A stretch of 64,000 nucleotides of DNA, taken from positions 1-64,000 of the forward strand of contig JAUHZK010000010.1 in NCBI GenBank assembly GCA_030425645.1, written 5' to 3'. Shown piece by piece: positions 366 through 44,061 of this stretch; the first letter of the stretch is position 1; the number at the start of each line of letters is the position of its first letter. The DNA is from Gammaproteobacteria bacterium. Lineage in GTDB: Bacteria > Pseudomonadota > Gammaproteobacteria > JAPPPA01. The translations under genes were made by a program, and so were the position numbers. The notes beneath the pieces are model-generated. The model saw only the letters and a list, made by a program, of their open reading frames with translations. It had not been told where the DNA came from and ran no database searches.

Positions 366-463
366 TTGTCCGAATCATCAACCCTACAGGGTGGGTAAAC
401 CGCGCTATAACGTAGGCTAAAGCTGCTAAACGATGCGGTAATAATTAAATATTGGGAGATACC

Positions 464-2257
464 ATGACCTCACGGTTTGCCAAGGAAGACGCAAATTTAG
501 TCTTTCCACCACGTTTTATTTCATCGCCTGCTGATAAAGAAAACTTAGATGTTTGGGGTTTTACAGATTCAGGGTTTGAAGTCATGCCAGATGGTAACGT
601 CCACATCAAAGGTGAACGCTACGCGGCAGGCGGTGACGTTTTAGATAAGCTTTTGCCCTGGGTAAGGGATGTAATGGAAGTAGATATTCGCGGCGATTTG
701 CAAAATCCGCCAAATTACCCTCCAACCATTCCAGACCCTATAAAAAACCCTTCGCTTATAAAAGCATTAACAAAGTTTCTGAGCTCAGAACAGCTCTGTA
801 GCGATTCAGAAGTTCGCCTGCGCCATGGGCACGGCCATACCCAAGAAGATATGTATAGCATCAAGTATGGGGAAGTTAAACGGATTCCAGACTTAGTGGT
901 ATATCCAGATAACGAGGAAGATGTGGCGGCTATTGTGAAAGCCGTTGGTGAAAATGATGCTTGCTTGATCCCTTACGGTGGAGGCACTAACGTAACCGCG
1001 GCGTTGCAATGCCCAGAAGACGAGAAACGCTGCATCGTGTCAGTAGATATGAAGGGCCTTAATCGCATCCATTGGATAGACACCGACAACCACATGGCCT
1101 GTATTGAGGCCGGCGCCGTTGGCAGGAATATCTTTTCCCAGCTTAAAGAATATGGTTTTACCATTGGTCACGAACCCGACAGTGTCGAATTTTCAACCTT
1201 AGGCGGTTGGGTGGCGACGAATGCCAGCGGTATGAAGAAAAATCGTTACGGCAATATTGAAGATATTGTTTTAGATTTTAATGTGGTGACTGCAGACGGC
1301 ATCATCGAACGGCATGACCTAAACCCACGCGAATCAATCGGCTCAGACCCACGTACTTGGTTGTTTGGCTCTGAGGGCAATTTTGGCATTGTGACCAGCG
1401 TCGTTGTAAAACTATTTCCGTTGCCGGAATCTGAAGTGCATGGCTCTGTGTTGTTTCCAGATTTTGACGCGGGCTACCGGTTTATGAAAGAGATCACGCG
1501 TGCTGGCGTTATCCCGGCCAGTGTGCGCCTTGTTGATAATTTGCAGTTCCAGCTTAGCCAAGCCTTAAAGCCTACAAAAACCGGATTACCCGCCCTAAAA
1601 AGCCAAGCTGAAAAGCTTTTGGTAACTAAAGCTTTAGGCTTCAATCCACAAAAAATGTGTGCTTGTACGTTGGTTTTTGAGGGCAGCAGATCAGAAACAG
1701 AAGCGCAGCAAAAGTCACTTTACCAAATAGCGAAAAAACACGGCGGCATGAAGGCCGGTGCAGAGAACGGTAAGCGTGGATATCAATTAACGTTTGCGAT
1801 TGCCTATATCCGCGACTTCATTATGAACCATTATCTTATAGCTGAATCGTTCGAAACCTCGGTTCCTTGGAGCAAATTACCTAACTTGGTAGCGAGCGTT
1901 AAACAGCGCTTACATGATGAGTGCGCAGCGCGCGGTATTCCAGGCAAACCTTTTGTTACTGCTCGCATCACACAAGTCTACCCAACAGGCGCGGCGGTAT
2001 ATTTTTACTTTGCGTTTTATTACAAAGGTATAGAAAACCCCTCAGCGCTTTATGCGGAAATTGAGCACGCCGCCCGCGAGGAAATCTTGTCCTGTGGCGG
2101 ATCGTTGTCGCATCACCATGGAATTGGCAAATTACGCGAATCTTTTTTGCCGCAAATATTGTCACCCACTGCATTACAGTGGAAACGAAAGTTCAAAGAC
2201 ACAATAGATCCTAAGCACGTATTTGCCGTAGGTAATCAGGCATTGCGAGATCAATAA
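464..2257 (+). CDS. Alkyldihydroxyacetonephosphate synthase-like FAD enzyme
   Basis: This is a 597-residue protein of the VAO/PCMH flavoprotein fold and closely resembles animal AGPS. That enzyme replaces the acyl chain of acyl-DHAP by a fatty alcohol and so forms the ether bond of ether lipids. Visible features are the FAD pyrophosphate loop PYGGGTNV (about residue 170), the long conserved stretch beginning GHEPDSVEFSTLGGW (about 235), the Tyr-rich YFYFAFYY region and, near the C terminus, SHHHGIGKLR, which holds the catalytic histidines of AGPS. Length matches the AGPS core without a peroxisomal leader. A TTG at 452 is in frame, but GGGAG at 454-458 sits five bases before ATG 464, so I use 464. 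The stop overlaps the next start by one base, so it is co-translated with an acyltransferase of the same pathway. Other VAO-family oxidases are less likely. Substrate use in this organism is inferred. Confidence 0.85.
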   Translation: MTSRFAKEDANLVFPPRFISSPADKENLDVWGFTDSGFEVMPDGNVHIKGERYAAGGDVLDKLLPWVRDVMEVDIRGDLQNPPNYPPTIPDPIKNPSLIKALTKFLSSEQLCSDSEVRLRHGHGHTQEDMYSIKYGEVKRIPDLVVYPDNEEDVAAIVKAVGENDACLIPYGGGTNVTAALQCPEDEKRCIVSVDMKGLNRIHWIDTDNHMACIEAGAVGRNIFSQLKEYGFTIGHEPDSVEFSTLGGWVATNASGMKKNRYGNIEDIVLDFNVVTADGIIERHDLNPRESIGSDPRTWLFGSEGNFGIVTSVVVKLFPLPESEVHGSVLFPDFDAGYRFMKEITRAGVIPASVRLVDNLQFQLSQALKPTKTGLPALKSQAEKLLVTKALGFNPQKMCACTLVFEGSRSETEAQQKSLYQIAKKHGGMKAGAENGKRGYQLTFAIAYIRDFIMNHYLIAESFETSVPWSKLPNLVASVKQRLHDECAARGIPGKPFVTARITQVYPTGAAVYFYFAFYYKGIENPSALYAEIEHAAREEILSCGGSLSHHHGIGKLRESFLPQILSPTALQWKRKFKDTIDPKHVFAVGNQALRDQ

Positions 2258-3699
2258 TGTTCGCAAAAAGCCAAACAATATTGATCTCGCAAGGAGAGGC
2301 TTGTATCGCCGGCGCACAGAGCCAAGAACAGTCGGCAGATTTAGCTTGGGTGCTTAAGCAATCAGGTACAAATCCTGCAGTCAAACTGATGGCTTATTCT
2401 CTGCGGAAAATTTTTCGTGGTTCGTTAGATGGATTAACTGTAGACGTTGCTTCTTTCAAGCAGGCGCTTGCCGCGGCGCCGCGAGATGTGCCGCGTGTGC
2501 TTATACCGATCCATCGCAGCTATTTTGATTTCTTAGCCGCTGGGTATTTGCTTTTCGCGCGGCAAGATCTGGATATTCCGCTACCGCATATCGCGGCGGC
2601 CGAAGAGTTCGGGCAAGTGCCTTTCATTGGTCCGCTGTTGGCTCGGTGCGGGGCCTTTTTTATTAGGCGTGGTCAGGGCAAAGAAGACGTTGAGTTAACC
2701 AGCCAGATTGAAGATTTAGTAAGAAAGCGCGAGACCTTCGAGTTTTTTATCGAAGGCACACGCAGCCGGTCACGTCAGTTTCTAGCACCAAAACGTGGTT
2801 TGCTGCGTTGTTTGCAAGGAACCGGCGAGCGGTTTGCATTATTTCCTATTGCCATTACGTACGACAGGGTTGCTGACGAACAAAGTTTTGTAACCGAGCT
2901 AAGCGGCCAAGCAAAACCCAAAATGACATTGGGCAAATTGTTTTCTTGGTATCGACGGATGCGCCGGGGAGAAGTGAATTTGGGCCGAATGCATATTAGC
3001 TGTGCGCCACCGATTATCTTGGCACCAGATTCGGATATTTACTCACTGGCCCACAGTGTTAACATGGCTTTGCAAAAACATACTGCTACCACCGATTATC
3101 ACCTGCAAGTGTTTTGTAATCATCACGCAAATTTAGGCATTAGTGTTGAATGGTTGGCACGAAACATTAGTCTCCGGGGCGGTAAACTGTTGAGCAGTAG
3201 TCTCGACGCTAATCTTGAAAGCAATGATGTCGATGCGATTATTGAGCGTAGCTTTCAATATCAGTGGTTGCATTTGTTTGTAGATGAAGCAGTACAGCGT
3301 TGGCCTAGTAACAAGGCTTTAAGTGATTATGCGTCGCGTGTCAGATATTTCCAGCCTCCGAGTATTGCAAGCTCAGCTTCACAAGATCCCCTTTTACAGT
3401 CGTTATTGACTTGTCTCTTTGTGCCAGTAGCAAACAATTATGCGCTAACGGCGTTAACCTTGGCCGCCATGCCATCAGAGCAGCGCTTTACGAAAAACGA
3501 GCTTATACAAAGCGCGCAGGTGCTGGCTACCAAAATGGCCATCATCGCCGATGTGCCTGTAATCGAAAACGCGATTAGCGCCTTGCTGGATAATCAAATG
3601 TTAAACAAAACCCTTAATCAGCAGCTGCAAAGAAACGCCAAAGAATCAGAGCTGAAACATTATGCCGAAGCATGCCAAATTGCGATTGACGATAAATAG
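2257..3699 (+). CDS. DHAP/glycerol-3-phosphate O-acyltransferase (GNPAT/PlsB type)
   Basis: This is a 480-residue acyltransferase of the PlsB/GNPAT family. The four acyltransferase blocks are visible in order: HRSYFD (H-X4-D, residues 86-91), GAFFIRR (132-138), FFIEGTRSRS (163-172) and FPIAITYDR (196-204). The EGTRSRS form and the downstream helical region are more like animal DHAP acyltransferase than like Escherichia coli PlsB, which is about 800 residues long. It would acylate DHAP (or glycerol 3-phosphate) at sn-1, making the substrate of the AGPS-like enzyme. The ATG overlaps the preceding TAA by one base (TAATG), which implies translational coupling. No transmembrane helices are obvious, so it is probably membrane-associated. 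DHAP over G3P specificity is inferred from the neighbour. Confidence 0.85.
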   Translation: MFAKSQTILISQGEACIAGAQSQEQSADLAWVLKQSGTNPAVKLMAYSLRKIFRGSLDGLTVDVASFKQALAAAPRDVPRVLIPIHRSYFDFLAAGYLLFARQDLDIPLPHIAAAEEFGQVPFIGPLLARCGAFFIRRGQGKEDVELTSQIEDLVRKRETFEFFIEGTRSRSRQFLAPKRGLLRCLQGTGERFALFPIAITYDRVADEQSFVTELSGQAKPKMTLGKLFSWYRRMRRGEVNLGRMHISCAPPIILAPDSDIYSLAHSVNMALQKHTATTDYHLQVFCNHHANLGISVEWLARNISLRGGKLLSSSLDANLESNDVDAIIERSFQYQWLHLFVDEAVQRWPSNKALSDYASRVRYFQPPSIASSASQDPLLQSLLTCLFVPVANNYALTALTLAAMPSEQRFTKNELIQSAQVLATKMAIIADVPVIENAISALLDNQMLNKTLNQQLQRNAKESELKHYAEACQIAIDDK

Positions 3700-3751
3700 C
3701 AACTCGTCACTAACGGATCATTAAACCTAAACACCCTACACTCGATAATAA

Positions 3752-4780
3752 ATGAAAACAGTACTTGTAACCGGCGGCAGTGGTTTTGTTGGCCGACATT
3801 TAATTGATGGCTTAGAAGCCGACCCTAGCGTTGACCAAATTGTGGTGTTGATACGTAACCCAGTAGCCTGGTCTGATTTGCCTTGGGCCAAACATTATAA
3901 GAAGGTAAAGCTATTAGAGGGCGGGCTGCATGACTTGACCCAGTGGGAGTCAAGCCCACTTATTAGGAAACTTAATGGTGTCTTTCATTTGGCCGCAATG
4001 GTCGCCCACAATCGTCGAGAACGCGAGGCTGTTTTTAGAACCAATGTTGATGGCAGTATTAGCATGGCCAAGCTTGCACAACGCAAAGCTTGCCGCATGG
4101 TGTACGTTTCAACGTCCGGCACAGTGGGGTGTTTCAAAGATGCCAATAAGAAAGCCGACGAGCATGCTAAATATGTGCACGATACTGTAGGCCGCTGGCC
4201 TTACTACGCCTCCAAAATTAAGGCAGAACAGCAACTACTTGAGATGTCTAAAAATGGCTTGGATTTGGTGATTATACGCCCGCCAATTATGTTGGGCCCT
4301 GGTGATCACCGATATCGTTCTACAGGGTTACTTCTTAAGTTTCTTAATCGAAAGCTCCCGATGGTTATTCGTGGGGGGTTCCCGATGGTAGATGTACGCG
4401 ATGCAGCCGCAGCAATTCAGAAAGCCATGAATTTGGCTGCACCCCAAAATATCTATCACTTACCGGGTGAGCAACCGAGTATTGATGAGCTATTTTCGAT
4501 GTTAGAACAGATTTCCGGCGTGCCTGCTCCCACTTTGCATTTGCCAGAGAAAGTAGTGCTGGCGATCGCCCGCTTTGACGAATGGCTTGGGATGAAGTTG
4601 CGCGGCGAGCCACTGGCTCTGGTTCCAGACCCAGTAGTGATTGAGATGGGTACCTCTTATTGGGGATTAAGCAGCCTATTTGCAGCCGAAGACTTAGATT
4701 TTAAACCGCGTAGTGCCAGAACAACCTTGATTGATACTGTGGCATGGCTGCGAGAACATCCGCCCTCCGAAGACCACTAG
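3752..4780 (+). CDS. Extended SDR NAD(P)-dependent reductase/epimerase
   Basis: This is a 342-residue extended short-chain dehydrogenase with the Rossmann motif VTGGSGFVG (residues 6-14) and the catalytic Y151-x-x-x-K155 (YYASK). The family includes 3-beta-hydroxysteroid dehydrogenase, dihydroflavonol reductase and HpnA-like proteins, so the substrate cannot be read from sequence. It follows the acyltransferase by 52 bases on the same strand. By position it could be the keto-reductase that turns alkyl-DHAP into alkyl-glycerol-3-phosphate, or a reductase that supplies fatty alcohol; both are inferences. The ATG has no strong ribosome-binding site. Confidence 0.75.
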   Translation: MKTVLVTGGSGFVGRHLIDGLEADPSVDQIVVLIRNPVAWSDLPWAKHYKKVKLLEGGLHDLTQWESSPLIRKLNGVFHLAAMVAHNRREREAVFRTNVDGSISMAKLAQRKACRMVYVSTSGTVGCFKDANKKADEHAKYVHDTVGRWPYYASKIKAEQQLLEMSKNGLDLVIIRPPIMLGPGDHRYRSTGLLLKFLNRKLPMVIRGGFPMVDVRDAAAAIQKAMNLAAPQNIYHLPGEQPSIDELFSMLEQISGVPAPTLHLPEKVVLAIARFDEWLGMKLRGEPLALVPDPVVIEMGTSYWGLSSLFAAEDLDFKPRSARTTLIDTVAWLREHPPSEDH

Positions 4781-4782
4781 CC

Positions 4783-4860
4783 TAGATGCAAGTCCACTTA
4801 CTAAACAGCACTTTGTTAGTGGACAAGAAATAGCAGGCGTCAGCGGACTTTCTGCATCTA
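4783..4860. terminator. Nested inverted repeats between convergent genes
   Basis: An outer repeat pairs TAGATGCAAGTCC (4783-4795) with GGACT-TTC-TGCATCTA (4845-4860), a 13-base-pair stem with a three-base bulge. It encloses an inner hairpin GTCCACT (4792-4798) / AGTGGAC (4818-4824), which competes for the same bases. The element fills the 77 bases between the SDR stop and the P460 stop, and its right arm includes the P460 stop codon. No T-run follows, so a role as a bidirectional terminator or mRNA 3'-end stabiliser is inferred from position. Confidence 0.4.
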
Positions 4861-5370
4861 ATAGTCAGAACCCGCTTGAGTATCAAAATATTTGCTGTAG
4901 TGGAATATGTAGTCCGTATCAACGAGTGGCACATGACAACCACGGCATGACTCGTAATCAACACTTAAAGCATTGCCGCTTGCGTCAAAAGCACTATATG
5001 CCCAGTCACCGGTCTTGATGGTCGCACTCTGACCGTTTCCCTGATCTTTAGACATCACAAATACTTTGGCCAAGGCCGCTTTGACTATTCCGCCATCCCC
5101 ATTTTTCTCCGCGTTATAAATTTCCATCACGAATTTTGTGCCATTCGCAAAAGCCTTCCCTGCAACCGTTTCAGCTCCCGCGTTGTTGATGTAAATATCA
5201 CGAATGTGGCCACTGCTTTTTTCAATGCCAGAAACAAATACTGGCCAGCTTTTGTAATCACTCGGTAACGGAATTTCCCCATCATTGTAGCTAGTGCTTA
5301 CCGCGTCGTTACTACTACAGCCGGAAATTATTCCCATTCCAAGCAACGCTGTGATAATGATAGTGCGCAT
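4858..5370 (-). CDS. Cytochrome P460 family haem lipoprotein
   Basis: This is a 170-residue exported haem protein. The N terminus is a lipoprotein signal ending in a lipobox (IISGC), so the mature protein should be anchored by its Cys to the outer or inner membrane facing the periplasm. A single c-type haem motif CRGCH lies about 25 residues from the C terminus, as in the cytochrome P460/cytochrome c'-beta family. Members bind NO or oxidise hydroxylamine; which activity applies here cannot be told from the sequence. The start ATG at 5368-5370 has GGAGAG about five bases upstream, and I prefer it to an in-frame start 18 codons earlier that would spoil the signal peptide. The 233 bases upstream hold no gene I can see. 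Confidence 0.8.
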   Translation of the reverse strand: MRTIIITALLGMGIISGCSSNDAVSTSYNDGEIPLPSDYKSWPVFVSGIEKSSGHIRDIYINNAGAETVAGKAFANGTKFVMEIYNAEKNGDGGIVKAALAKVFVMSKDQGNGQSATIKTGDWAYSAFDASGNALSVDYESCRGCHVPLVDTDYIFHYSKYFDTQAGSDY

Positions 5371-5603
5371 ATTAACTCTCCACCCTAGTTTTACCGATGT
5401 AGTGACCAATCTGTATGTCGCCAAATCAGACTGATCATTTTTTGGAATAAACCTACCGATACCTTACAACATAACATGTGACATATTAATGAATATCCGA
5501 CACGCCACTAGCACCTGCGAAACTATTCCCAGAAAAAACCAGAAGAGCAGCTAGGAACCAGAATTTAATACGGTGAGGCATGTGGACTAGGCCGTTAGCT
5601 ACA

Positions 5604-6404
5604 TTAAGACTTTGCAATCAGTGGCTGAAGGTTAGCGCCAAACCAGCTGCCCATAATTTTGATTCCATCCATACCAGGCAGCTGACCAATTTTCTGATCC
5701 ACTTCCTCTATTAATTCATCTTTATAATCATCGCCGAATAAACCAGAGAAAAGTCGGGCAACTTCTTCGTTTGTCTTTACACCTGCCCCAACTGGACTCC
5801 AAAAACGCTCAAGCATAAAACGTACAAGTTTGCGATGACTTGGGTTCTCTTCTAGTCGCTTCTTAGCATTGTTGTAGTACCAAGAAAAATGCACCCGCTC
5901 TTGCTTCATGATTCTTTTGCAGATTTCATCTAGAACAGGATTGCTGGTGGTATCACGAATACGTTGATAACCAGAATGTGTTGTAAATTCCTGAACCGCA
6001 CCCCACGTCATATATAAGGTAACGAAGCGCTCATTCAGTAGACGAGAAACTTTACTGGTCAACCAAGCTAGAAACTTCTCTTTGAAGGTTGCTCTACGCC
6101 GGACTTCGGCAATACGATTCGGCTCAAGGCGAGTGCCACAAACCTCCAGCACTTTGGACAATGCTTCGCCATGGAAGTACTCCTCGTAGTTCCATGCAGA
6201 TAAAAAACCGATAACTTCAGGATCGTCCACAGCGGTGGTGTGAAGGATGTCCCGCATATACATAATTGTTTGCCCTTCGATATCGGTAAAGTAGGTAAGA
6301 ACAAACTCCTCCTCGTTCGTCAGCCCGGCGTTAGCTGCGACATCCCAGTCAATACCACCTAAATCGAGTTTGCTAGAGATTTCGAGTACGCGTTGAGTTT
6401 TCAT
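5604..6404 (-). CDS. Ferritin-like di-iron protein, acyl-desaturase-like
   Basis: This is a 266-residue helical protein with the two E...ExxH halves of a ferritin-superfamily di-iron site: E43 in DIEGQ, E75 and H78 in EEYFH, E139 in QEFTT, and E169 and H172 in QERVH. Spacing fits soluble acyl-ACP desaturase (DesA/FA_desaturase_2) relatives rather than ferritins. It would use O2 and an electron donor to desaturate or hydroxylate an acyl chain in the cytoplasm. ATG 6404 has AGGTG six bases before it and is preferred to a GTG three codons earlier. It stands alone, with 228 bases of unassigned DNA on its upstream side. A link to the ether-lipid cassette on the opposite strand is only positional. 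Confidence 0.7.
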   Translation of the reverse strand: MKTQRVLEISSKLDLGGIDWDVAANAGLTNEEEFVLTYFTDIEGQTIMYMRDILHTTAVDDPEVIGFLSAWNYEEYFHGEALSKVLEVCGTRLEPNRIAEVRRRATFKEKFLAWLTSKVSRLLNERFVTLYMTWGAVQEFTTHSGYQRIRDTTSNPVLDEICKRIMKQERVHFSWYYNNAKKRLEENPSHRKLVRFMLERFWSPVGAGVKTNEEVARLFSGLFGDDYKDELIEEVDQKIGQLPGMDGIKIMGSWFGANLQPLIAKS

Positions 6405-6558
6405 TTGATTCACCTAGTTGGATTGAATGGTGTAATCAAACCATGCCCCAGCATGGCCAACAAACCATTTTTGAATATCAAGACTGGGACATAGTAAATA
6501 CTAACTAGTTTCGGACCGTCGCCAAAAAGATAACAGTAAGAAGGCCAAACCAAATCAG

Positions 6559-6632: not shown

Positions 6633-9600
6633 CTAGGTAATCACCATTAACCAAGTCATCACCCAACGAATAGCCCCAGAGCACCGGGTGATTGTCTGCC
6701 CGGTATCTCCAATAATTGAGAAGCGTCCGTAGTGCTCTATAAAAGCCTCTGAATTAGAAGCAACCTTTTTACGCGGCGGCATCTGGTTTTCCAAATACGG
6801 TTTAACAAAATCTGTTTCTGGCAACGCAGCCCAAAGCTCAAGTTGTTCTTCATCTAGACGAACTCGAGCCAGTTTACTTTGTGCTTGCATCTTCCATGTC
6901 GTTAGCAACCAACTAAGTTGCTCGGGATTAGCTTGTCGCAAGGCTTCTAGATAATCACAAAACAAAGCCGCTGCGACCGTTGGCGAGCGAGCCGGCAGTG
7001 GTTTAGGCACCAATACGCCATCGCATTCCACCAGTGAGTGCCGAGGCACATCACTGCCCTTCTTGGCGGTTTTCAATTTTGAAAGGGCAATTAGTTCTTC
7101 TCGTATCTGTTCTAGGTTCTCACCAGTTTCGTTTGGCACATGTCCCGTTAAGAGAGCCTGCAAATGCTCAAAACGCTCGAAGTAAATTTCTCGTGAGGCT
7201 CCCTCAAGTAACTCACCCGCAGCAGCCTTCTGGACCTTAAAACCAGAAAAGCCATGATCCAAAGTTTCCGTATCCGAGTCGACTAGCTCCTTCAATACAT
7301 TATGAATGTGCGCTTGTTGATCCTTCGTTTCAAAATCAGCAGTGTTCTCTCGCCACACCCTCTGCCGTCGGCGCATCGTTGCAGGGCTTTTGATGCGATA
7401 TTCAAATGCACGATCAAAGTCGATCGCAGGCAGGGTGTGTAGGTATGCCAACTGAGCAATACCAACAGTGTGGATGTAATAGCGCAATGTAGTGGTTGGG
7501 TGCGAATGACCCAACATAGCAGAAATGGCTTGAACTCCGTGCCCACTAAACCCCTCGTTCCCTAATAAGACGCCTAAACGCCCTCTCGGAATTAATAATT
7601 GCTGCAACCAAGGGATGTGGTCCTGTATCGAATTAAAGTCTACAGCGGGCTGCAAAACCGATAACAGTAGCTGACTAGCAACGGTGTGTCGCAATATATG
7701 TAAGTGAGAGTTTGGATCTCCAGTAACTGCCTGAATCAGCTTATTGAGTGGATCAAAAAACTGGCTTCCATCAACCCACCGGTCAGGTGAGACTAATTGG
7801 TTAGGACGGTTAGTGTCATTTTCGCTTAACCATTTAGTGAAATTCTTGTCCGCATATCCAACCGGAAGATTGCGACGGGAGCTGTTCGTTTTTAGCGTAT
7901 GGTCATCGTAAGGCTGTACGCGCATCAGGTTTTTTTGCACGTCTAGCAACCGCAAGTTAATGGCCTCGGTACGCCGAAGACCATAAGTGCCGACCATGCG
8001 CATCACACCGACTGCAGATGCCCTTGCATCCTCAGATCCAATGCCGCTCAACGCAGACCCGAGCGCTTCAATTACCTGCCGTTGGTGTGCCGGCAAAACA
8101 AGCGTGCTCAGCACCCCCTGCAATTGGCCGGGCTCAATATCCCCTACTTTTATTCCGAGCTGTGACAGCTTGTTAACGGTGCCGCGCTGACGCAGACATT
8201 TCCTAAGCAGCCCAAATGCCTCGGCCGTGCTGACATTTGAGTGATGATCCACGAACCCATCATGGATTTGGCTAAGCAAGGACTCGTCAATAACAAAACC
8301 ACGGTTTGGCTCAGAGCAAAAGCCAAACAAACTGTAACCAACCACTTCAATCAACTTTTTATAGCGCTGCTTCTCCGCTTCGGGTAATTTGTTTTTAACA
8401 AGCTTAAGTTCTTTTTGGTGTAACCACGTCGCGAAATACCCGAGCAGTCGGTTCCGATAACCTTTCTCGGTCAGCTTGTTTATTCTTTTGATTCGCGTAC
8501 TTGGGTCAGGCGAGCGAATAGCAGCCACTTCGCGAACAGGGTTCGCGTTTCTAGGCAAATCTTGTGATGGCAGTTCAGAGGGTTCTGGCCTGAATGATTG
8601 CTCCAAACTATCATTTTCCACGGAGGCGACACGCGACTCTTGTGCTACTGGCAGCCCTAACAAGTGCCTTAATTCGTTCTCGGGTAAATCGTGTGTCTCA
8701 AACTCACCCGCAGCATAGGCGGCTAGCAACGGCGCGCCATTAAGCAAATGATATTGCTGAGATGCCTGCAAAAGCGTCGTTAGCAACTTTGTTCCAGCCA
8801 CGTCAGCCAATTCTTTGAGGTAGGCGGCTAACAACCGCTGACATTTAGCTCGGCGCTGTTGCGGATTTAATTCGACAAGAGGTTGTAGCAAGTCACTAAT
8901 TCGCTCTCGCTCAGCCGCCAGATAAATCGCACTGTAGGGCTCCAGAAAAATGAGTCGGTCCATCTTCGCCCCATTACGCCGACAACGAATCATCGCTGGG
9001 ACATATCGCAGACCTGCCGTGGCTCTTATTCCATGCTGGAGGAAGCCTTCGATAAATTGGTTGACCACCGGCCAGGTACTCAGTCCTTGTCGCCACATCA
9101 ATATCATAAAGAAACGAGCGAGCTGATGTTTATCACTATCCGGCGGTGGCAAGTGCGAAAGTTCTTTATTAAAGGCCGGCAATACATGCCGCTCTAAATA
9201 GGCCAAATTAACGATGGCATTACGCTTAATAAGCCAATCTTTTTGAAACTGCCTTCTAGGCTTATTGACGTATATCGGTACTTTCCACTCGCGTCGAGCG
9301 TAGTCGCAGCAGTCCTTAGCAATTTGGATTTCCGTTTTAATGTCTTTGCCGCATGCCTTAGCAACCTTCAATATCAAACTCATCACAGCGGCAGGGACTT
9401 TCTCAGTCGTGCCGCAAACCGCCTTATAAAGTTCTTCGGCATGCTCTTGAAAGGCTTCTTCAATTTGCTGCTTTTTAAGTACTGCCTTTGAGTCTTCCTT
9501 AACAGGCGATTTCTCGAGCGTCGAGGAGACAGGCACGAGCGTCAAAGGAATAGGCCAGGCGATTGCCGGCTTAGCAATCTTAGGATGAGTAATCACCCAA

Positions 9601-12812: not shown

Positions 12813-12850
12813 TAAAGCGCCCTTGTATCAGGGCTTTACAGCACTAAAGC
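12813..12850. repeat. Interlocked inverted repeats, possible recombination core
   Basis: The hexamer TAAAGC occurs at 12813-12818, its complement GCTTTA at 12833-12838, and TAAAGC again at 12845-12850. Within the first pair GCCCT (12819-12823) and AGGGC (12830-12834) pair around the six-base spacer TGTATC. Two arms of about ten bases around a six-base spacer is the usual shape of a tyrosine recombinase core site. It lies just upstream of the 226-residue gene. A plain RNA hairpin is the alternative. Confidence 0.35.
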
Positions 12851-12899
12851 CTGTACCAGAAGAGACCGAAGGTCAAATTACAACTAGATTAGTTTTTTA

Positions 12900-12923
12900 T
12901 CAACAATGAATATATTGAGTTGA
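12900..12923. promoter_or_regulatory. AT-rich dyad, possible operator
   Basis: TCAAC at 12900-12904 and GTTGA at 12919-12923 bracket a symmetric AT-rich centre (AAT...ATT). A second small dyad GTCG/CGAC follows at 12926-12941. The position, between the tRNA-type promoter and the 226-residue gene, suits a binding site for an element-encoded regulator, but no protein can be named. Confidence 0.25.
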
Positions 12924-13040
12924 AAGTCGGTATAAATCGACAAAAATGGGCAAAAGTAATTTCGCCTATTAACATTATTTATCAATGTTTTAGGTGGATT
13001 TACGCCGAGTAATGACGCTTAAAGACATCTAAGACGTTAG

Positions 13041-13078
13041 CATTATGAGCGACGAGCTGCCAACTGCTCCACCCCGCA
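13041..13078 (-). pseudogene. 5' half of an initiator tRNA (tRNA-fMet) gene
   Basis: On the minus strand, 13078 to 13041 reads as the first half of tRNA-fMet: acceptor strand TGCGGGG, then TG, D-stem GAGC, D-loop AGTTGGCA, D-stem GCTC, G, TCG and the anticodon loop CTCATAA with anticodon CAT. Two G residues of the anticodon stem are missing. After the loop the sequence becomes unrelated, and there is no T-arm, 3' acceptor strand or CCA. A functional tRNA cannot be made. A canonical tRNA promoter lies immediately upstream, so this is a broken native gene, not chance similarity. The 3' half was not found elsewhere in the window. Breakage inside the anticodon region next to a tyrosine recombinase module suggests integration or rearrangement there. 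Confidence 0.8.
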
Positions 13079-13092
13079 TCAGGATGGCGCGC

Positions 13093-13121
13093 ATTATAGG
13101 GATGCCCCCTAGCCATAGCAA
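13093..13121 (-). promoter_or_regulatory. Strong tRNA-type sigma-70 promoter
   Basis: On the minus strand a -35 box TTGCTA (13116-13121) and a perfect -10 box TATAAT (13093-13098) are separated by 17 bases. They are followed by the GC-rich discriminator GCGCGCC usual for stable-RNA promoters under stringent control. The tRNA-fMet fragment starts 15 bases after the -10 box. With no tRNA left to make, transcription would run on into the 226-residue gene and the giant recombinase. Confidence 0.75.
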
Positions 13122-13341
13122 CCGATATTTGAGAAAACAACAAGAAATAAGTCAGTTAATATGGAATGCGCTCTTCGTCGGACCACTACATAACAAAACC
13201 AAACAGCACCACAAGAAACTTTTAGGCAACGCGCCGTCCTGATAACCTAATCAACGCAGGCCTCGACTGCTTAAGAGCCCTTACAGAGCCGGGGCCACAC
13301 CGACAACCAACAACGCCAACCCGCCCATTTAGACCGACCAA

Positions 13342-36301: not shown

Positions 36302-37069
36302 CTAGTTCAGCTTTGCCACCTGTTTCAGCGGCAAATTGCGCATTAAAAAGCCTACCGGTTTCCAAGGCCATGCAGGTACACAGGCTTCGTCGACTTCGGC
36401 TTCAATCTCTTTCACCAGCAATTTGCAGCCTTTCTCGGCTTCGATAATAAATGGCAGCTTGTCGTTGTCGCCGGTAAGTTCGGTTTTGATATAACCCGGA
36501 TACAACGTGGTAACTTTAATGCCGGGCTTACGCATACAGTCAGCACGCAGGCCTTCTGCTAGGTGCGCGACGGCCGCTTTAGTGGCCGCATAGGTCGCTA
36601 GCATGCCGCGCTGGCCGCGCATAGCGCTCATGCTAGAGACAATCACTAAATGGCCTTTACCACTCTCGCGGAACAGCCCCATAGCCGCTTCGGCTTGGGC
36701 TAATACCGCGGTAAAGTTAATGTCGATAATGCGTTTGTTTTGCTCAAACTTACCCTTACCGACGGTTTCGCCTTCGGCACCAACACCGGCGTTGGCGATA
36801 TAACGCTCTAAGCCACGGCCAGTGGTGGCCTTAAATTCGGCATCAAAGGCTTCAGTAACGCTAAAGACATCATCAAACTGAGTCACGTCTAAGGCTTTAA
36901 CCAATACCGTGATATTCGGGTTAATGGCCAGCAACTCGGCTTTTAGTGCTTCAAGGCGATCGGTGCGGCGTGCACACAGGGCTAAGTTATTGCCTTTAGC
37001 TGCCAGCTCTTTGGCCATACCAGCGCCTAAACCAGAACTGGCACCAGTGATTAAGGTATTTTTGCTCAT
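36302..37069 (-). CDS. Short-chain dehydrogenase/reductase
   Basis: This is a 255-residue classical SDR: TGASSGLGAGMA for the cofactor, an NAG motif (IANAGVG), the catalytic Ser in IVSSMSA and YAATK as Y-x-x-x-K. Length fits a soluble NAD(P)-dependent alcohol/keto reductase. The substrate is unknown. It lies downstream of the acyl-CoA dehydrogenase/kinase genes but is set apart from them by an inverted repeat at 37091-37165, so it may be a separate transcript. Confidence 0.85.
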   Translation of the reverse strand: MSKNTLITGASSGLGAGMAKELAAKGNNLALCARRTDRLEALKAELLAINPNITVLVKALDVTQFDDVFSVTEAFDAEFKATTGRGLERYIANAGVGAEGETVGKGKFEQNKRIIDINFTAVLAQAEAAMGLFRESGKGHLVIVSSMSAMRGQRGMLATYAATKAAVAHLAEGLRADCMRKPGIKVTTLYPGYIKTELTGDNDKLPFIIEAEKGCKLLVKEIEAEVDEACVPAWPWKPVGFLMRNLPLKQVAKLN

Positions 37070-37090
37070 GTTATTTCCATCAGAGCTTTC

Positions 37091-37165
37091 GGGGACAGAC
37101 CCCTCCGCTCAAAACCATTTCAACTATGTAAGTTCATCATGCTAATCGAAGCGGGGTCTGTCCCC
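37091..37165. repeat. Paired REP-like inverted repeat
   Basis: GGGGACAGACCCC (37091-37103) and its exact reverse complement GGGGTCTGTCCCC (37153-37165) flank 49 bases. Each 13-mer is itself nearly palindromic. I recall this type of motif from dispersed REP-like repeats in other bacteria. It fills the gap between the histidine phosphatase and the SDR and could fold into one long hairpin. Confidence 0.75.
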
Positions 37166-37172
37166 TACCTCG

Positions 37173-37865
37173 CTAGCGGTAGGTAATTAAATGCTGGCGC
37201 TCGCCTTCAAAGGCGCTGTGTTCATTCAGTGACGACAGGTACATGCCGCGGTCACTGTAAATAATTTTGGTTATGCCGCAATTAGCGAGTGTCCAATTCA
37301 GTTTAAAGATGTCTTCGTCGCTGATATGCAGCAAGTGCTGGGCCACGGCAGAAATCGGCCCACCGCTGGTAAAGACAAAGGCCGTTTTCGATGGCCCCAA
37401 GCTATCTCGTAGGTGATTAAGGGATTGCAGCACACGGGCCTGAAACTGCTGCCAAGTTTCTGTGTATTCGTCGCTATACTCGTTGCTCAACCAGCGCTCA
37501 ATCGCGGCCGCAAACATCTTCTGAAATTCGCGTCGTGGGTTTAGCGTTCTAGCTAAATCAGCCTTCATCACCAGTTTGTTTTTATAGGCCGGTTTATAAC
37601 GCTCAATAACCTGTTCATGGTCATACTCATTCCAACCGGCGTTAATGATCCAGCCTCGACTATTGCCCATGCCTTGCAGGCAGCCTTCGGCAGTTTGCCG
37701 ATGCCGCTTCATGCTGCCAATTTGCACCGCATCTAATTGCGGCACACGGTGCTTTAAGGACTCCCCCAATACAAGCGGCTGCTTTAGGCCGGTCTTTGAG
37801 AGGTTGTCATAGTCGGCTTTTCCAAAGGAAGCCTGACCGTGGCGGATAAGATAAATCGCGCCCAT
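37173..37865 (-). CDS. Histidine phosphatase family protein (phosphoglycerate-mutase fold)
   Basis: This is a 230-residue protein with the N-terminal phosphohistidine motif LIRHGQASFG (family RHG) and the second catalytic His region as FTSGGPISA, where the usual GHG pattern is altered. It hydrolyses or transfers phosphate on a small molecule. It starts immediately after the kinase stop, so a paired kinase/phosphatase role in the same pathway is possible. The changed second motif makes the activity less certain. Confidence 0.8.
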   Translation of the reverse strand: MGAIYLIRHGQASFGKADYDNLSKTGLKQPLVLGESLKHRVPQLDAVQIGSMKRHRQTAEGCLQGMGNSRGWIINAGWNEYDHEQVIERYKPAYKNKLVMKADLARTLNPRREFQKMFAAAIERWLSNEYSDEYTETWQQFQARVLQSLNHLRDSLGPSKTAFVFTSGGPISAVAQHLLHISDEDIFKLNWTLANCGITKIIYSDRGMYLSSLNEHSAFEGERQHLITYR

Positions 37866-38933
37866 TTAACCAGCCTTTTTGATTAAACGCTGGCAGCGCC
37901 AGTTCAGGTAGTTGACCATAATCCAAAAGTTTTTAAAGGTTGGGTTGCGTGTTTGCTTGTGGTGATAACGGTAATAAATCTGCTGCAAGATCACAGCTAG
38001 ACGAAACAGCCCATAAACTTCGTAGAAGGCCCAATTATCGGGTTGCAAACCCGATTTCTCTAAGTAGTAGTCAACCACTTCTTGGCGAGTCAACATGCCC
38101 GGCAAATGGGTTGGCTGGCGGCGCATCGCTTTAATCAGAAAGTCATCGTCTTCTTGCACCCAATAGGCCAAGCTGTTGCCTAGATCCATCAATGGGTCGC
38201 CTAGGGTCGCCATTTCCCAATCCAGCACCCCGATAACCTCAGCGGGGTTATCTGGGTTTAGCACCACATTGTCAAAACGGTAGTCGTTATGAATCACACA
38301 AGTAGCAATATCGTCTGGGCAGTTTTTATCTAACCAGCGCATCACTTTTTTAAACGACGGCACATTCCAGGTTTTGGCCTTAGCGTAACGACCGCTCCAG
38401 CCATCAATCTGGCGGCGGCAATAACCATCGCCCTTGCCAATAGACTCTAGGCCTGCGGTTTGGTAATCCACTTGGTGCAGCTCAACAAACTTGTCGATCA
38501 CACTCATGCAAATTTCGCGGGTCGTCTGCGGCGTTAGTTCAAGCTCACGCGGCATATTGGCGCGCGGAATAATGCCCTTGAGCCGATCCATCACGTAAAA
38601 GTCGGTGCCAATCACGTTCTCGTCGTCACAGAAAGCATGCATTTGTGGCACGTAAGGAAATACCGGCTTTAAGGCAGACTGCACCTTAAACTCGCGCCCC
38701 ATATCATGGGCACCCTTTGCCTTGGTCCCCGCGGGGCCACGGCGCAGAATTAAGTCGTGGCTGGGATACTCAAGACGATAGGTCCAGTTAGACGCGCCAC
38801 CAGAGTATTGCGTCACCTCAGCCTGCCCTTCTAAGCCATGTAGCTGTGGTTTTAACCAAGCATCTACCGCAGCAATATCCAGTTCTTCACCAGCACGGAC
38901 AGCCCCACCTACATCTATTATTCCTTTAGGCAC
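37866..38933 (-). CDS. APH-fold phosphotransferase, ACAD11-N/LvaA-like
   Basis: This is a 355-residue kinase-fold protein of the aminoglycoside phosphotransferase superfamily, in the group related to the N-terminal half of ACAD10/11: SGGASNWTYRLEY for the nucleotide loop, HNDYRFDNVVL as catalytic loop and VLDWEMATLGDPLMDL as metal-binding loop. Known relatives such as LvaA phosphorylate 4-hydroxyacyl-CoA during levulinate or 4-hydroxyacid breakdown. An acyl-CoA dehydrogenase lies in the same gene group, as in ACAD11 fusions. GTG 38933 has GGAGG six bases upstream. The start overlaps a relic frame of a paralogue. Confidence 0.85.
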   Translation of the reverse strand: MPKGIIDVGGAVRAGEELDIAAVDAWLKPQLHGLEGQAEVTQYSGGASNWTYRLEYPSHDLILRRGPAGTKAKGAHDMGREFKVQSALKPVFPYVPQMHAFCDDENVIGTDFYVMDRLKGIIPRANMPRELELTPQTTREICMSVIDKFVELHQVDYQTAGLESIGKGDGYCRRQIDGWSGRYAKAKTWNVPSFKKVMRWLDKNCPDDIATCVIHNDYRFDNVVLNPDNPAEVIGVLDWEMATLGDPLMDLGNSLAYWVQEDDDFLIKAMRRQPTHLPGMLTRQEVVDYYLEKSGLQPDNWAFYEVYGLFRLAVILQQIYYRYHHKQTRNPTFKNFWIMVNYLNWRCQRLIKKAG

Positions 38934-39015
38934 GAGCTATCCTCCGATTGTCCTGAGCTTGTCGAAGGGCGCCTTCGCGTACGGCGCCGCCAATATCAAT
39001 CACGCCCTTACTCAT
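38926..39015 (-). pseudogene. N-terminal relic of a second APH-like kinase gene
   Basis: This 29-codon frame starts with ATG overlapping the SDR stop (ATGA). Its first 15 residues MSKGVIDIGGAVREG match the intact kinase start MPKGIIDVGGAVRAG, yet nearly every third codon position differs. After residue 15 it runs into a dispersed-repeat sequence and ends at TAA inside the start of the intact gene. It looks like the stub of an old tandem paralogue whose body was lost, rather than a recent duplication. It may still help translational coupling. Confidence 0.7.
38950..38969. repeat. Dispersed intergenic repeat motif
   Basis: The motif TCCTGAGCTTGTCGAAGG lies exactly where the kinase relic loses similarity. 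I recognise this string as a common dispersed repeat of many proteobacterial genomes. Only one copy is seen in this window, so its repeated nature here is from general knowledge. Confidence 0.5.
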
Positions 39016-39818
39016 TTTTTCTTCACTCTCGCTACCGTGCGCTTAATCATCATCTCGGCATATTGCTTAAACGGCAACACACGCTTGAGGTTAAAGATCA
39101 GCCGATCTTGATAGAGCGGAATCACATGAAACTGCCCCTTGTGTACGGCTTTCCAACAGGCTTCTGCCACATCGGGCGCGGTTAGTTTGGCATGCTTAAA
39201 TAGCTTCGACATCATCACCCGAATTTCATCATCATCCGTGCGCAACGACTCTTCCAAATTGGTTTTAAAAAACGACGGACAGATCACTGAAACGCCAATA
39301 TTGTCTTGTGACAACTCGATGGCTAAGGTTTCAGATAAAGCCACCGCGCCGGCCTTACTGGCGTTATAGCTGGCCATCCCCGGCGGATGAATCAGACCCG
39401 CCATGGAGGAGGTATTTAGGAAATAACCCCCACCCTGCCGCTTAAAAATGGGCGTAAAGACCTTACAACCGCGGGCAATACCGACAACGTTAATATCTAG
39501 TACAGCCAGCCAGTCTTCGATCTTATGGTTCTCAATCCGTCCGCCAGTAGCGATACCAGCGTTGTTAACCACCACGTCGACTCCACCCCAGTCGGCGACC
39601 AAACGATCCGCTACCGCTTGAAGGTCTTGCTCTTTGGTGACGTCAACGTGCTCGTAACGACCTTCGCCACCAAGCTCGTTGACCATGGCAACCACTTCAG
39701 CACCACGGTCGGCGTTAATGTCGCCAATGCAAACCTTCCAACCGGCCCGTGCCCAGCGTTCAGCAATCGCCCGGCCGAGGCCAGACGCACCACCTGTAAT
39801 AAAAATTCTATTGCTCAC
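39012..39818 (-). CDS. Short-chain dehydrogenase/reductase
   Basis: This is a 268-residue classical SDR with TGGASGLGRAIAERW, VNNAGIAT, a Ser in NTSSMAG and YNASK as Y-x-x-x-K. The basic C terminus (RTVARVKKK) may aid membrane contact. It lies between the acyl-CoA dehydrogenase and the kinase on the same strand, so it probably oxidises or reduces a hydroxyacyl or keto intermediate of the same pathway; LvaD in levulinate catabolism is a comparable SDR. Substrate is inferred. Confidence 0.87.
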   Translation of the reverse strand: MSNRIFITGGASGLGRAIAERWARAGWKVCIGDINADRGAEVVAMVNELGGEGRYEHVDVTKEQDLQAVADRLVADWGGVDVVVNNAGIATGGRIENHKIEDWLAVLDINVVGIARGCKVFTPIFKRQGGGYFLNTSSMAGLIHPPGMASYNASKAGAVALSETLAIELSQDNIGVSVICPSFFKTNLEESLRTDDDEIRVMMSKLFKHAKLTAPDVAEACWKAVHKGQFHVIPLYQDRLIFNLKRVLPFKQYAEMMIKRTVARVKKK

Positions 39819-39836
39819 TCATATCTCCATTTGATG

Positions 39837-39897
39837 GCCACGAAACTCACAAAACCCACAAAAAACGTTTTTCGTGTTCTTTCGTGGGGTTAGTGGC
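39837..39897. repeat. Imperfect inverted repeat with CACGAA units
   Basis: GCCAC (39837-39841) and GTGGC (39893-39897) close a 61-base imperfect inverted repeat whose arms contain CACGAAA/TTTCGTG-like units around an AACGTT centre. It fills the gap between the SDR start and the acyl-CoA dehydrogenase stop. It could be a small dispersed repeat. No T-run marks it as a terminator. Confidence 0.5.
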
Positions 39898-39904
39898 TAT
39901 GCCT

Positions 39905-41140
39905 TTATTTCTTGGCTAGACGTCTATATTTCGCTAGTTCTAAGCGGGCAACCATACCGCGATGCACTGCATCAGGGCCGTCGGCAATACGTAAGGTGCG
40001 GGCATAGGCGTACATGGCTGCTAATGGCGTGTCATGGCTAACACCGGCAGCGCCGAACATCTGGATGGCCTCATCAATGATTTGTTGCAACACATTAGGC
40101 GCAATCACCTTAATAGCGGAAATTTCCGTAAGCGCCGCTAAGGCACCCACAGCATCGATTTTCCAAGCGGCAGACAAGGTCAGCAAACGGGCTTGATCAA
40201 TCGCCATACGGAAATCGGCAATCTTTTCACGGTTACCACCCAAATGAATAATGGGTTTACCAAACGCCACTCGCTGCATGCCACGCTCAATCATTAGCTT
40301 TAGCGCCACCTCAGCAGCGCCAATGCAGCGCATGCAGTGGTGAATACGACCGGGGCCAAGACGGCCTTGGGCAATCTCAAAGCCCTTACCCGGGCCAACA
40401 ATAAAGTTATCTACCGGCACGCGAACATTATTGAAATGCACTTCACCGTGACCAAACGGTTCATCGTACTCACCAAATACTGGCAGCATCCGCTGTAACT
40501 CTACGCCAGCAGTATCCATTGGCACTAGCACCATGCTATGGCGATGGTGACGGTCAGCCTCGGCGTCTGTCAGCGCCATGACAATCAGGATTTTGCATTC
40601 AGGGTGACCAATTCCAGTGGCAAACCATTTTTTGCCATTTAGGACGATCTCATCACCGTCGACAATCGCAGTGGCTTCCATATTGGTGGCATCAGACGAG
40701 GCCACATCCGGCTCGGTCATACAAAACGCCGAACGAATCGTGCCGTCCATCAGTGGCTCTAACCACTGCGCTTTTTGCGCGTCGGTGCCGTATTTCCAAA
40801 GCACTTCCATATTGCCGGTATCGGGCGCGTTGCAGTTAAACACCACCGGGGCAATAAAGCTGCGGCCCATCTCTTCGGCTAATGGCGCGTAATCAACGTT
40901 ATTCAAACCCGCGGCAAGCTCGCTATCCGGCAAAAACAGATTCCACAAGCCTTCGGCCTTGGCTTTGGCCTTTAGCTCTTCCAGCTCGGCTGGGACTTCC
41001 CACTTGGTCCAGTCACCGGCATTGCCCTTGGCAACCACATCCAAATAATACTGATGCTCAATCGGCTCAATATGGGTTTGGATAAATTTGCGAATACGTT
41101 TTTGGTAGTCCAGCGTTTCGGCGGAATGTTTGAAATCCAT
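39905..41140 (-). CDS. Acyl-CoA dehydrogenase, ACAD11-like
   Basis: This is a 411-residue FAD enzyme of the acyl-CoA dehydrogenase family: FCMTEPDVASSDATN and GKKWFATGIGHP for FAD and substrate binding, CIGAAEVALKLM..R, and EAIQMFGAAGVSHDTPLA toward the C terminus. The length and motifs resemble the dehydrogenase half of ACAD10/11, which acts with a fused kinase on 4-hydroxyacyl-CoA. Here the kinase is a separate gene in the same group. It is divergent from a LysR regulator, which probably controls it. Confidence 0.88.
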   Translation of the reverse strand: MDFKHSAETLDYQKRIRKFIQTHIEPIEHQYYLDVVAKGNAGDWTKWEVPAELEELKAKAKAEGLWNLFLPDSELAAGLNNVDYAPLAEEMGRSFIAPVVFNCNAPDTGNMEVLWKYGTDAQKAQWLEPLMDGTIRSAFCMTEPDVASSDATNMEATAIVDGDEIVLNGKKWFATGIGHPECKILIVMALTDAEADRHHRHSMVLVPMDTAGVELQRMLPVFGEYDEPFGHGEVHFNNVRVPVDNFIVGPGKGFEIAQGRLGPGRIHHCMRCIGAAEVALKLMIERGMQRVAFGKPIIHLGGNREKIADFRMAIDQARLLTLSAAWKIDAVGALAALTEISAIKVIAPNVLQQIIDEAIQMFGAAGVSHDTPLAAMYAYARTLRIADGPDAVHRGMVARLELAKYRRLAKK

Positions 41141-41238
41141 GAGTATCTCCTAATGTTGCAGATACTCTATGTCAGCATTATCAATGAATGAAATGAATAT
41201 TTTTCATACTTATTAATAAATATGATTAATATATAGAA
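41141..41238. promoter_or_regulatory. Divergent control region with a LysR-type dyad
   Basis: This 98-base AT-rich gap separates the acyl-CoA dehydrogenase and the LysR gene. It contains ATGAA-N5-TTCAT (41193-41207), of the interrupted-dyad kind LysR regulators bind, followed by AT-rich steps suitable for -10 boxes. Binding by the adjacent regulator is inferred from position. Confidence 0.5.
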
Positions 41239-42135
41239 ATGGACTTGAACCTACTTCGCGTGTTTGCGGCGATTTACGAACAGCACAGCCTTAGCCGTGC
41301 TGCCGAGCAGCTATATTTAACGCAACCAGCCATTAGCCACAGCTTAAAACGCCTGCGTGAGCATTACGGAGACCCGCTATTTATTCGTGATGGTCGCGGC
41401 ATGCGCCCGAGTGCACTCGCACTACAAATGGGCCCAAAGCTATTGGCAACCTTAAAAGAGCTAGAGCTGTTACAACAAAGCCAACTAAGCTTTGACCCCA
41501 GCACCACTGAAAAGCGTTTTGTGATTGGCGCCCGCGAGGCTTTAGAGTCACTATTAATGGTCAAACTCGTGCAACGTTTAAGCGCACAAGCACCCTTGGT
41601 AGAAATCGCCAGTGTGGCCTTTAACCGCGAACAGCTTAGCCGCGATCTAGAACGGCGGCATTTAGACCTCGTGGTCGACGTGCCATTAGCCGTCAAACCT
41701 CATATCGGCCAACAAGCGCTAGTTACCGACGAATTCTGTGTATTGGCCTCTAAACAGCACCCATACGCGCACGAGCCGACCCTAGAACATTATCTCGCGG
41801 CCAAACACGTCGCGGTATCTGGCCGCCCCAGCGGCCCCACGGTGGTTGATTACGCGCTGCAGCGCCACGGCTTGGCGCGCAACACTGCCCTACGCTGCCA
41901 GCACTACCACGCCGCCTGTGCGATCGCGGCCGAGTCTGACTATTTAGTCACGCTGCCGCGCGGCATTGCCGAACAAATGCAACAAGGCCGCAAAACCTGC
42001 CTATTGCCGTTGCCGGTTAAAACCGAAGTTATTCAGCTGCAACTTTATTGGCACAAAAATTATGAAGACGAACCTAGTAATCGCTGGTTGCGACAACAGG
42101 CCTTAAGCTTGGGTAGCAAAAATTTCGAGCAATAA
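41239..42135 (+). CDS. LysR-family transcriptional regulator
   Basis: This is a 298-residue LysR regulator. The N-terminal helix-turn-helix is plain (DLNLLRVFAAIYEQHSLSRAAEQL then TQPAISHSLKRLREHYGDPLF), followed by a periplasmic-binding-like effector domain. It is divergent from the acyl-CoA dehydrogenase cluster and ends in a strong terminator. It probably senses an acid or CoA intermediate of that pathway; the effector is unknown. Confidence 0.92.
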   Translation: MDLNLLRVFAAIYEQHSLSRAAEQLYLTQPAISHSLKRLREHYGDPLFIRDGRGMRPSALALQMGPKLLATLKELELLQQSQLSFDPSTTEKRFVIGAREALESLLMVKLVQRLSAQAPLVEIASVAFNREQLSRDLERRHLDLVVDVPLAVKPHIGQQALVTDEFCVLASKQHPYAHEPTLEHYLAAKHVAVSGRPSGPTVVDYALQRHGLARNTALRCQHYHAACAIAAESDYLVTLPRGIAEQMQQGRKTCLLPLPVKTEVIQLQLYWHKNYEDEPSNRWLRQQALSLGSKNFEQ

Positions 42136-42139
42136 AAAA

Positions 42140-42159
42140 CCCCGCAATGCGGGGCTTTT
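42140..42159. terminator. Bidirectional intrinsic terminator
   Basis: CCCCGC (42140-42145), loop AAT, GCGGGG (42149-42154), then CTTTTT on the plus strand; an A-run on the left gives a T-run on the minus strand. It separates the convergent LysR and CBS genes and can stop both. Confidence 0.9.
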
Positions 42160-42181
42160 TAGAAGCAAATTTCGAGTGAGC

Positions 42182-42583
42182 TTACACGCGGATTTTTTCA
42201 ATCGCTCGCAACACATCAGCACGAGAGATTTGTCCGACTAAACGCTCTTCCTCGTCGACGACTGGAAAGCGCTTATAAGGCTGATCGATAAAGGCCTTGG
42301 CTACTTCCATAATGCTGGAATCAGCATCAATGGTTTCTACGTTTTTGGTCATGTAGTCCGCCACTTTGCCGCCCATGCCTTCGTTGTAACCGGCCTCAAG
42401 CGCCACTTTCATGCAGTCTTTCTCAGACAACATGCCAACAATATTGCCAGCACCGTCGACCACCGGCGAACCGGAAATACGACGCTCGACTAAAGTATGA
42501 ATAGCTTCGAGCACATCTTCATCTGGCGAAAACGTGACCACACTGGCAGACATATATTCTTTTACTGAAATGCTATGTAACAC
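42182..42583 (-). CDS. CBS-domain protein
   Basis: This is a 133-residue protein made of two CBS motifs (about 8-60 and 75-130: VKEYMSASVVTFSPDEDV and VADYMTKNVETIDADSSI), which form one Bateman module binding adenosyl nucleotides. It has no effector domain, so it is probably a small energy-sensing regulator or partner protein. It lies downstream of the nqr operon with a 73-base gap on the same strand. Confidence 0.88.
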   Translation of the reverse strand: MLHSISVKEYMSASVVTFSPDEDVLEAIHTLVERRISGSPVVDGAGNIVGMLSEKDCMKVALEAGYNEGMGGKVADYMTKNVETIDADSSIMEVAKAFIDQPYKRFPVVDEEERLVGQISRADVLRAIEKIRV

Positions 42584-42656
42584 CGGTTACTCCCCAATCC
42601 GTTTCTATAGTTATAGAAGGCCAGCAAATGCTGTGCCAGTCTCGTTTTGATTCGCG

Positions 42657-42824
42657 TTAGTCATCGCAACTGCCAAGCGGCTTGCCTGCTTTTTCGCAGG
42701 CACAGTCGCTGCCAGCAATACCACCACAAGAGCCTTTGATAGGTTTATTGCTGAACATGACCCCCACGGCCATGCCCGTCATTACCAAAGCAAAAACTAC
42801 AAATGCTGCTAGTACGGTTGCCAT
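42657..42824 (-). CDS. nqrM: Na+-NQR maturation protein NqrM (DUF539)
   Basis: This is a 55-residue protein with one N-terminal membrane helix ([19 protein letters not shown]) followed by [16 protein letters not shown] and a final GSC, the conserved cysteine pattern of NqrM. It delivers iron to the NQR complex for its Fe centre between NqrD and NqrE. The ATG follows the nqrF stop directly (TAAATG), as in other nqr operons. Confidence 0.9.
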
Positions 42825-44048: not shown

Positions 44049-44061
44049 GTCGACTCCCGCC

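Follow-up and report, generated by a model that had tools for sequence, protein, structure and literature searches.

A 5' half of an initiator tRNA gene as the probable displaced arm of an island inserted at the anticodon stem-loop

Elements that target tRNA genes keep the host promoter with very few exceptions, according to a review that cites Williams 2002 (PMC8371274). Passages of the Islander paper report a 5' tDNA fragment in 159 of 3919 islands and a site at the anticodon in 2083 of 3919 (PMC4383910). In M. abscessus, MabA1 prophages inserted at attB-5 rebuild the 5' end of tRNA-Met and supply its promoter, as stated in part of the report on them (PMC8092301). The geometry described below is thus rare but already known. 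No initiator-tRNA case of this kind was found in our literature searches, most subscription papers lying outside their scope. The locus considered here lies in a window, by which we mean the whole 64,000-nt stretch analysed, of contig C4 of a gammaproteobacterial genome (JAUHZK010000010.1, assembly GCA_030425645.1).

On the minus strand, positions 13121-13043 carry a stable-RNA-type promoter followed by the 5' half of tRNA-fMet up to the anticodon loop, as the original prediction had it. The promoter (13086-13121) consists of a -35 box TTGCTA (13121-13116), a 17-bp spacer, a -10 box TATAAT (13098-13093) and the discriminator GCGCGCC (13092-13086). Its stable-RNA character and its TATAAT box stand; the word perfect, used of it at the time, is a little strong, as it agrees with the consensus at 10 of 12 positions and in the -35 box at 4 of 6. 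The tRNA half (13043-13078, 36 nt) runs from nt 1 at 13078 to the last base of the anticodon loop at 13043. The loop itself, CTCATAA (13043-13049), is the probable 7-bp overlap region, and just before it the GGG of the anticodon stem is two Gs short (GTCG--CTCATAA). A search of the 2.75-Mb genome with a 96-nt stretch covering these features gave eight matches, the best being the intact tRNA-fMet locus at C12:2621-2715 (92% identity, E 2.4e-32) and the second best having an E-value of 0.43. With upstream DNA added, the match to C12 spans window positions 13029-13151 (88.8% over 125 columns, E 3e-39). Identity is 36/38 columns inside the half and falls to 18/38 past the loop. Neither ARAGORN nor Rfam called a tRNA at 13041-13121, and no complete foldable tRNA is present there. 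Judged by alignment, the genome's only initiator tRNA gene is the source of the fragment, which is its displaced 5' half. A hit to the sRNA STnc430 at 12835-12979 scored 33.2 bits against a gathering threshold of 47 and was taken as chance.

A genome-wide check for intact tRNA-fMet copies found one, a tRNA-Met(cat) at C12:2664-2739, upstream of rimP-nusA. This is a common setting, with rimP at most 1.5 kb from tRNA-fMet in 27 of 30 fMet loci of relatives. The 5' side of the C12 gene is occupied by the tyrosine integrase P0003 (C12:655-1959, some 700 bp away from the 5' end of the tRNA), small HTH genes and an HNH-type gene. The one same-genus genome compared (G001, 88% complete) carries the site empty on its contig C251, where an SDR gene, tRNA-fMet and rimP are contiguous and uninterrupted. 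The genes directly preceding tRNA-fMet-rimP in G001 correspond by synteny to a native flank at 36302-44077 (minus strand) of the window; flank genes share 76-81% DNA identity between the two genomes, and RimP is 91% identical. In the window genome, what lies between this flank and tRNA-fMet is a polysaccharide cluster of 23 kb, then the fragment and the recombinase genes, then other genes up to where the contig stops; on the C12 side of the same separation stands the integrase module. Two insert genes were checked in G001, one encoding a FAD-linked oxidase and one lying outermost in the polysaccharide cluster, and neither had a match at 1e-20. The same fragment at another locus in relatives without the recombinase would have spoken against insertion; among the matches listed at E ≤ 0.001, none of the other 36 relatives had a match to the 5' half only. 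Intact tDNA and cognate 5' fragment are both present, on different contigs (C12 and C4); given the junction of C4 with C12 that synteny with G001 implies, their order and orientation would fit. No assembled sequence connects the two contigs, and the whole island is therefore nowhere visible in one piece.

The window begins at a contig edge (1-240) made up, as labelled by eye, of an IS3-like transposase end (1-106, with an inverted copy at the opposite end of C4) and the remnant of an HNH-type gene (107-240), which resembles the HNH-type gene adjoining the integrase on C12. At 452-6413, a FAD-linked oxidase, an acyltransferase and an epimerase lie in a row, followed by a cytochrome P460 and a desaturase, possibly lipid-synthesis cargo. 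The polysaccharide cluster (13342-36074, 23 kb), between native flank and fragment, is absent from the G001 site and has no tRNA scar of its own. A scar of the native promoter was sought near 36.2 kb, where G001 predicts tRNA-fMet, and was rejected (best local score 16; ten highest of 200 shuffles, 20-22).

A second island of this layout came up, without being searched for in advance, in Solimonas sp. SE-A11. In its genome a single full tRNA-fMet is accompanied by one 5' half that stops exactly at CTCATAA (query 1-58). The order is a secG-like gene, tRNA-Leu, the fMet 5' half, a 259-aa ORF and a 1961-aa recombinase ORF, the last being 30-32% identical to the giant recombinase of the window, P0001, over nearly the whole length. 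The sole full-length tRNA-fMet faces an integrase 64% identical to P0003, and this island is also divided over contigs. In both genomes CTCATAA is followed by xGCTAAC. The GGG run is one base shorter in the Solimonas fragment and two shorter in that of the window, and the exact crossover base is uncertain because of this shortening. On this comparison, the same arrangement is seen to recur independently in an unrelated bacterium. A third case, genome G090, concerns a 5'-side integrase of the P0003 family at tRNA-Val: the displaced tRNA-Val 5' half has the anticodon loop TTGACAT as its end and has lost five bases in the D-loop. Genome searches found no displaced 5' fragment for the 5'-side loci L095, L167 and L168; the L167 genome has two identical full tRNA copies. 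A caspase-domain protein with an effector-associated domain (L200, 16628-17764) adjoins the giant recombinase of Solimonas and is possibly defence cargo.

With high confidence, though on sequence comparison, we read the fragment as the attL of an island that a tyrosine recombinase integrated into the single tRNA-fMet gene, at its anticodon stem-loop. The whole copy accompanied by a half, the empty site and the Solimonas arrangement, as they appear in the assemblies, carry this reading. The attP of the island would bear the 5' half of tRNA-fMet together with a promoter; crossover would join this half to the native 3' half, forming attR on C12. The rebuilt tRNA-fMet would stay whole and be transcribed from the island's promoter, while the earlier promoter and 5' half would be pushed to the far end of the island, at 13043-13121. 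Insertion was probably carried out by P0003, the integrase beside the rebuilt gene, and C4 would join C12 through unassembled DNA. The original prediction of a mirror image of the usual 3'-half case, made by an element crossing over in the initiator-tRNA anticodon stem-loop, gains support from the C12 copy and the G001 site. Its further suggestion that the element breaks the initiator tRNA is not borne out, as the gene appears to be rebuilt at the other island end with a promoter and 5' half that the island carries.

P0003 has Arm-DNA-bind_2, SAM-like and Phage_integrase domains. Among the best 80 of 100 relatives in the genome collection, the closest are those of Salinisphaerales (L095) and Solimonas (L096, 64% identity). 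Each of the three is faced by the 5' end of a tRNA-Met(cat), and together they form one clade (support 100/98). The tree comprises 91 integrases, namely the 80 loci, 10 of 17 further loci and P0003; it excludes L175 (own duplicate), L185 and L186 (partial) and L187-L190 (31-34% identity). L185, outside the tree, also looks 5'-side. With side labels given where a tRNA lies within 1.3 kb upstream, 42 rows are labelled (36 3'-side and 6 5'-side) and 49 unlabelled, and the 5' label needs at least three changes on the tree. In the 3'-side members L101 and L131, displaced 3' fragments start at tRNA nt 62 and 67. These are the 2 of 36 loci with a visible fragment in a test where the available DNA reached no further than 10 kb from the integrase; a third candidate, L161, was rejected because its match is on the opposite strand and outside the tRNA. 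From where the displaced fragments end or start, crossover would lie at the anticodon in the three 5'-fragment cases, unlike the two 3' cases. Such a reversal of polarity within one integrase family, with the crossover moved to the anticodon, appears to be undescribed as far as our literature searches reached. Viral contigs held one relative of P0003 and none of P0001, and a viral origin was not retained.

Candidate arm-type sites were also noted. The motif CCGACGGTCAA is present at the integrase end of all three clade islands (own, Solimonas and L095), and its inverted form lies at the far end, exact in Solimonas and with one mismatch in the window, where TTGACCTTCGG (12866-12876, minus strand) is a possible arm-type site. 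As a family-wide mark CCGACGGTCAA was rejected, occurring at 6 of 78 integrase loci against a mean of 1.7 and a maximum of 7 for shuffled motifs. In both islands, tandem TGGGCTACA-like repeats, read by eye, separate the HTH gene from the promoter of the rebuilt tRNA (L072, 2459-2510; L096, about 9440-9500) and are possible arm-type integrase sites.

The genes next to the fragment encode P0001 (6633-12110, minus strand), a giant tyrosine recombinase of 1825 aa with a Phage_integrase domain at aa 1359-1484, and P0002 (12107-12787, minus strand), a 226-aa partner without family match whose gene overlaps that of the recombinase by 4 bp. Residues R1379, K1407, H1471, R1474, H1535 and Y1545 are invariant in an alignment of four sequences, giving a complete R-K-HxxR-H-Y set at aa 1379-1545 (catalytic assignment by eye). 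Partners of similar size, 259 aa in Solimonas and 223 aa in Acinetobacter plasmids, align weakly with P0002. Among 72,556 plasmid records, relatives of P0001 occur on 42, all from Acinetobacter, and 39 of them cover at least 80% of the query. On two such plasmids (L205, 5333-11049; L206, 5336-11037) there is a two-gene module of about 223 aa and 1680 aa, and the stretches shown carry no P0003-type integrase annotation. Separate proteins of about 831-908 aa and 1031-1033 aa resemble the two halves of P0001 and lie near P0003-type integrases, on contig C2 of the same genome and in G026, with weaker matches to the halves in several other integrase loci; P0001 may, by this resemblance, be a fusion protein. 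On C2 (L202, 8852-17018), a P0003-type integrase is accompanied by split recombinase proteins of 158, 831 and 1033 aa. P0001 had no match in 50,697 phage records, no PDB relative was found, and the predicted structure of aa 340-870 (mean pLDDT 54) was too poor for use. A defence-system label was rejected (no PADLOC hits for five proteins). The Gamma-mobile-trio (GMT), likewise a multi-gene recombinase module, was considered as well; no NCBIfam match to GmtX, GmtY or GmtZ was found among eight proteins, in a library that may or may not include GMT models.

It is quite unlikely that the P0001/P0002 pair, and not P0003, splits tRNA-fMet, with P0003 belonging to a second, tandem element, as would follow if the recombinase module beside the fragment were the integrating element, as originally proposed. 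In both islands the pair does lie no more than about 260 bp from the fMet fragment, it keeps its full catalytic set, the full-length family is rare (at 1e-60, found in 1 of 369 genomes of the class, the window's own), and the HNH remnant at the contig edge hints at a second element. Against this, the two inspected Acinetobacter plasmid loci, out of the 42 records, have no fMet fragment, and P0003-type integrases routinely adjoin tRNA genes and have an arm-binding domain. The likely integrating enzyme is P0003, and we think that the recombinase pair would be island cargo or serve an accessory function. A duplicated and decaying tRNA-fMet locus, produced by segmental duplication unrelated to integration, could account for homology over about 70 bp of the DNA preceding the tRNA, and for weak similarity past the loop. 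That explanation is extremely improbable given the end point, gene order and partner genes shared with Solimonas, the empty site in G001 and the lack of the fragment among the matches listed for the 36 other relatives.

The promoter raises a separate question, as the original prediction placed the element's own genes under its growth-coupled control. Capture of the promoter to drive the recombinase operon would agree with the shared orientation and a position about 300 bp upstream in both islands: here the first module ORF starts about 255 bp beyond the tRNA half. Between fragment and ORFs, however, lies a terminator-like hairpin with a T-rich tail (12949-12966, minus strand; 51-nt fold of -9.7 kcal/mol, z -2.6). 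Counting patterns by itself makes it a weak one (three local against 1.4 expected, not significant); its Solimonas counterpart is strong (-25.4 kcal/mol, z -3.9). These hairpins argue against a promoter that drives the recombinase genes, which makes capture unlikely; we expect that the stranded promoter would yield a short terminated RNA and not operon transcription.

Integration by P0003 would also exchange promoters. In Solimonas, fragment and rebuilt gene agree at 31/60 positions in the promoter and 38/39 in the tRNA half, as expected if the rebuilt gene runs from an island promoter. In the window genome the displaced and rebuilt promoters agree at 52/55 columns, and each agrees with the G001 promoter at 33-35 of 55, so the displaced promoter is perhaps not the lineage's original. 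This pattern leaves two readings: an island that arrived from a close relative sharing the promoter, or a fragment that is itself an earlier island's arm. The rebuilt gene beside the integrase, the fragment at the far end and the repeat of both in Solimonas suggest that the island exchanges promoters, the host tRNA-fMet now presumably standing on an island-borne one and the displaced one being stranded in attL. In two distant bacteria, an essential tRNA encoded in single copy would thereby owe its promoter to a mobile element. Tentatively, and with more doubt than confidence, the islands may form a distinct class, in which a 5'-reading fMet integrase occupies one end and a 1.8-2.0-kaa recombinase pair the opposite one. 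This class would put the only initiator tRNA under an island promoter, influence translation initiation capacity and make its own imprecise loss lethal; its polarity would have reversed inside one integrase family as the crossover point moved off the tRNA 3' end and into the anticodon loop. Since close integrase relatives show both polarities, the switch of side and crossover point becomes testable. The case also flags a rare giant recombinase without assigned role.

Within our literature searches, the island family and its polarity reversal appear undescribed, and the rare giant recombinase at the island end opposite P0003 is new here. Islander islands are likewise integrase-bearing and bracketed by a whole tDNA and a displaced end fragment; passages of that paper give counts and do not name a P0003-type fMet family (PMC4383910). 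MabA1 differs in consisting of prophages from another phylum, and the initiator tRNA, the crossover and a giant recombinase are not mentioned in the part of the report consulted (PMC8092301). The pTN3-like integrases also use an attB that lies within the 5' half of a tRNA gene and differ in being archaeal, the review calling them, in the part concerned, unique in archaea (PMC8371274). Closest in domains are the phage-type tyrosine integrases with Arm-DNA-bind_2 (DUF3596, the name of annotated relatives), which have these domains in common with P0003; their tRNA-linked members are mostly 3'-side (36 of the 42 labelled rows), unlike P0003, which is faced by the 5' end of its target.
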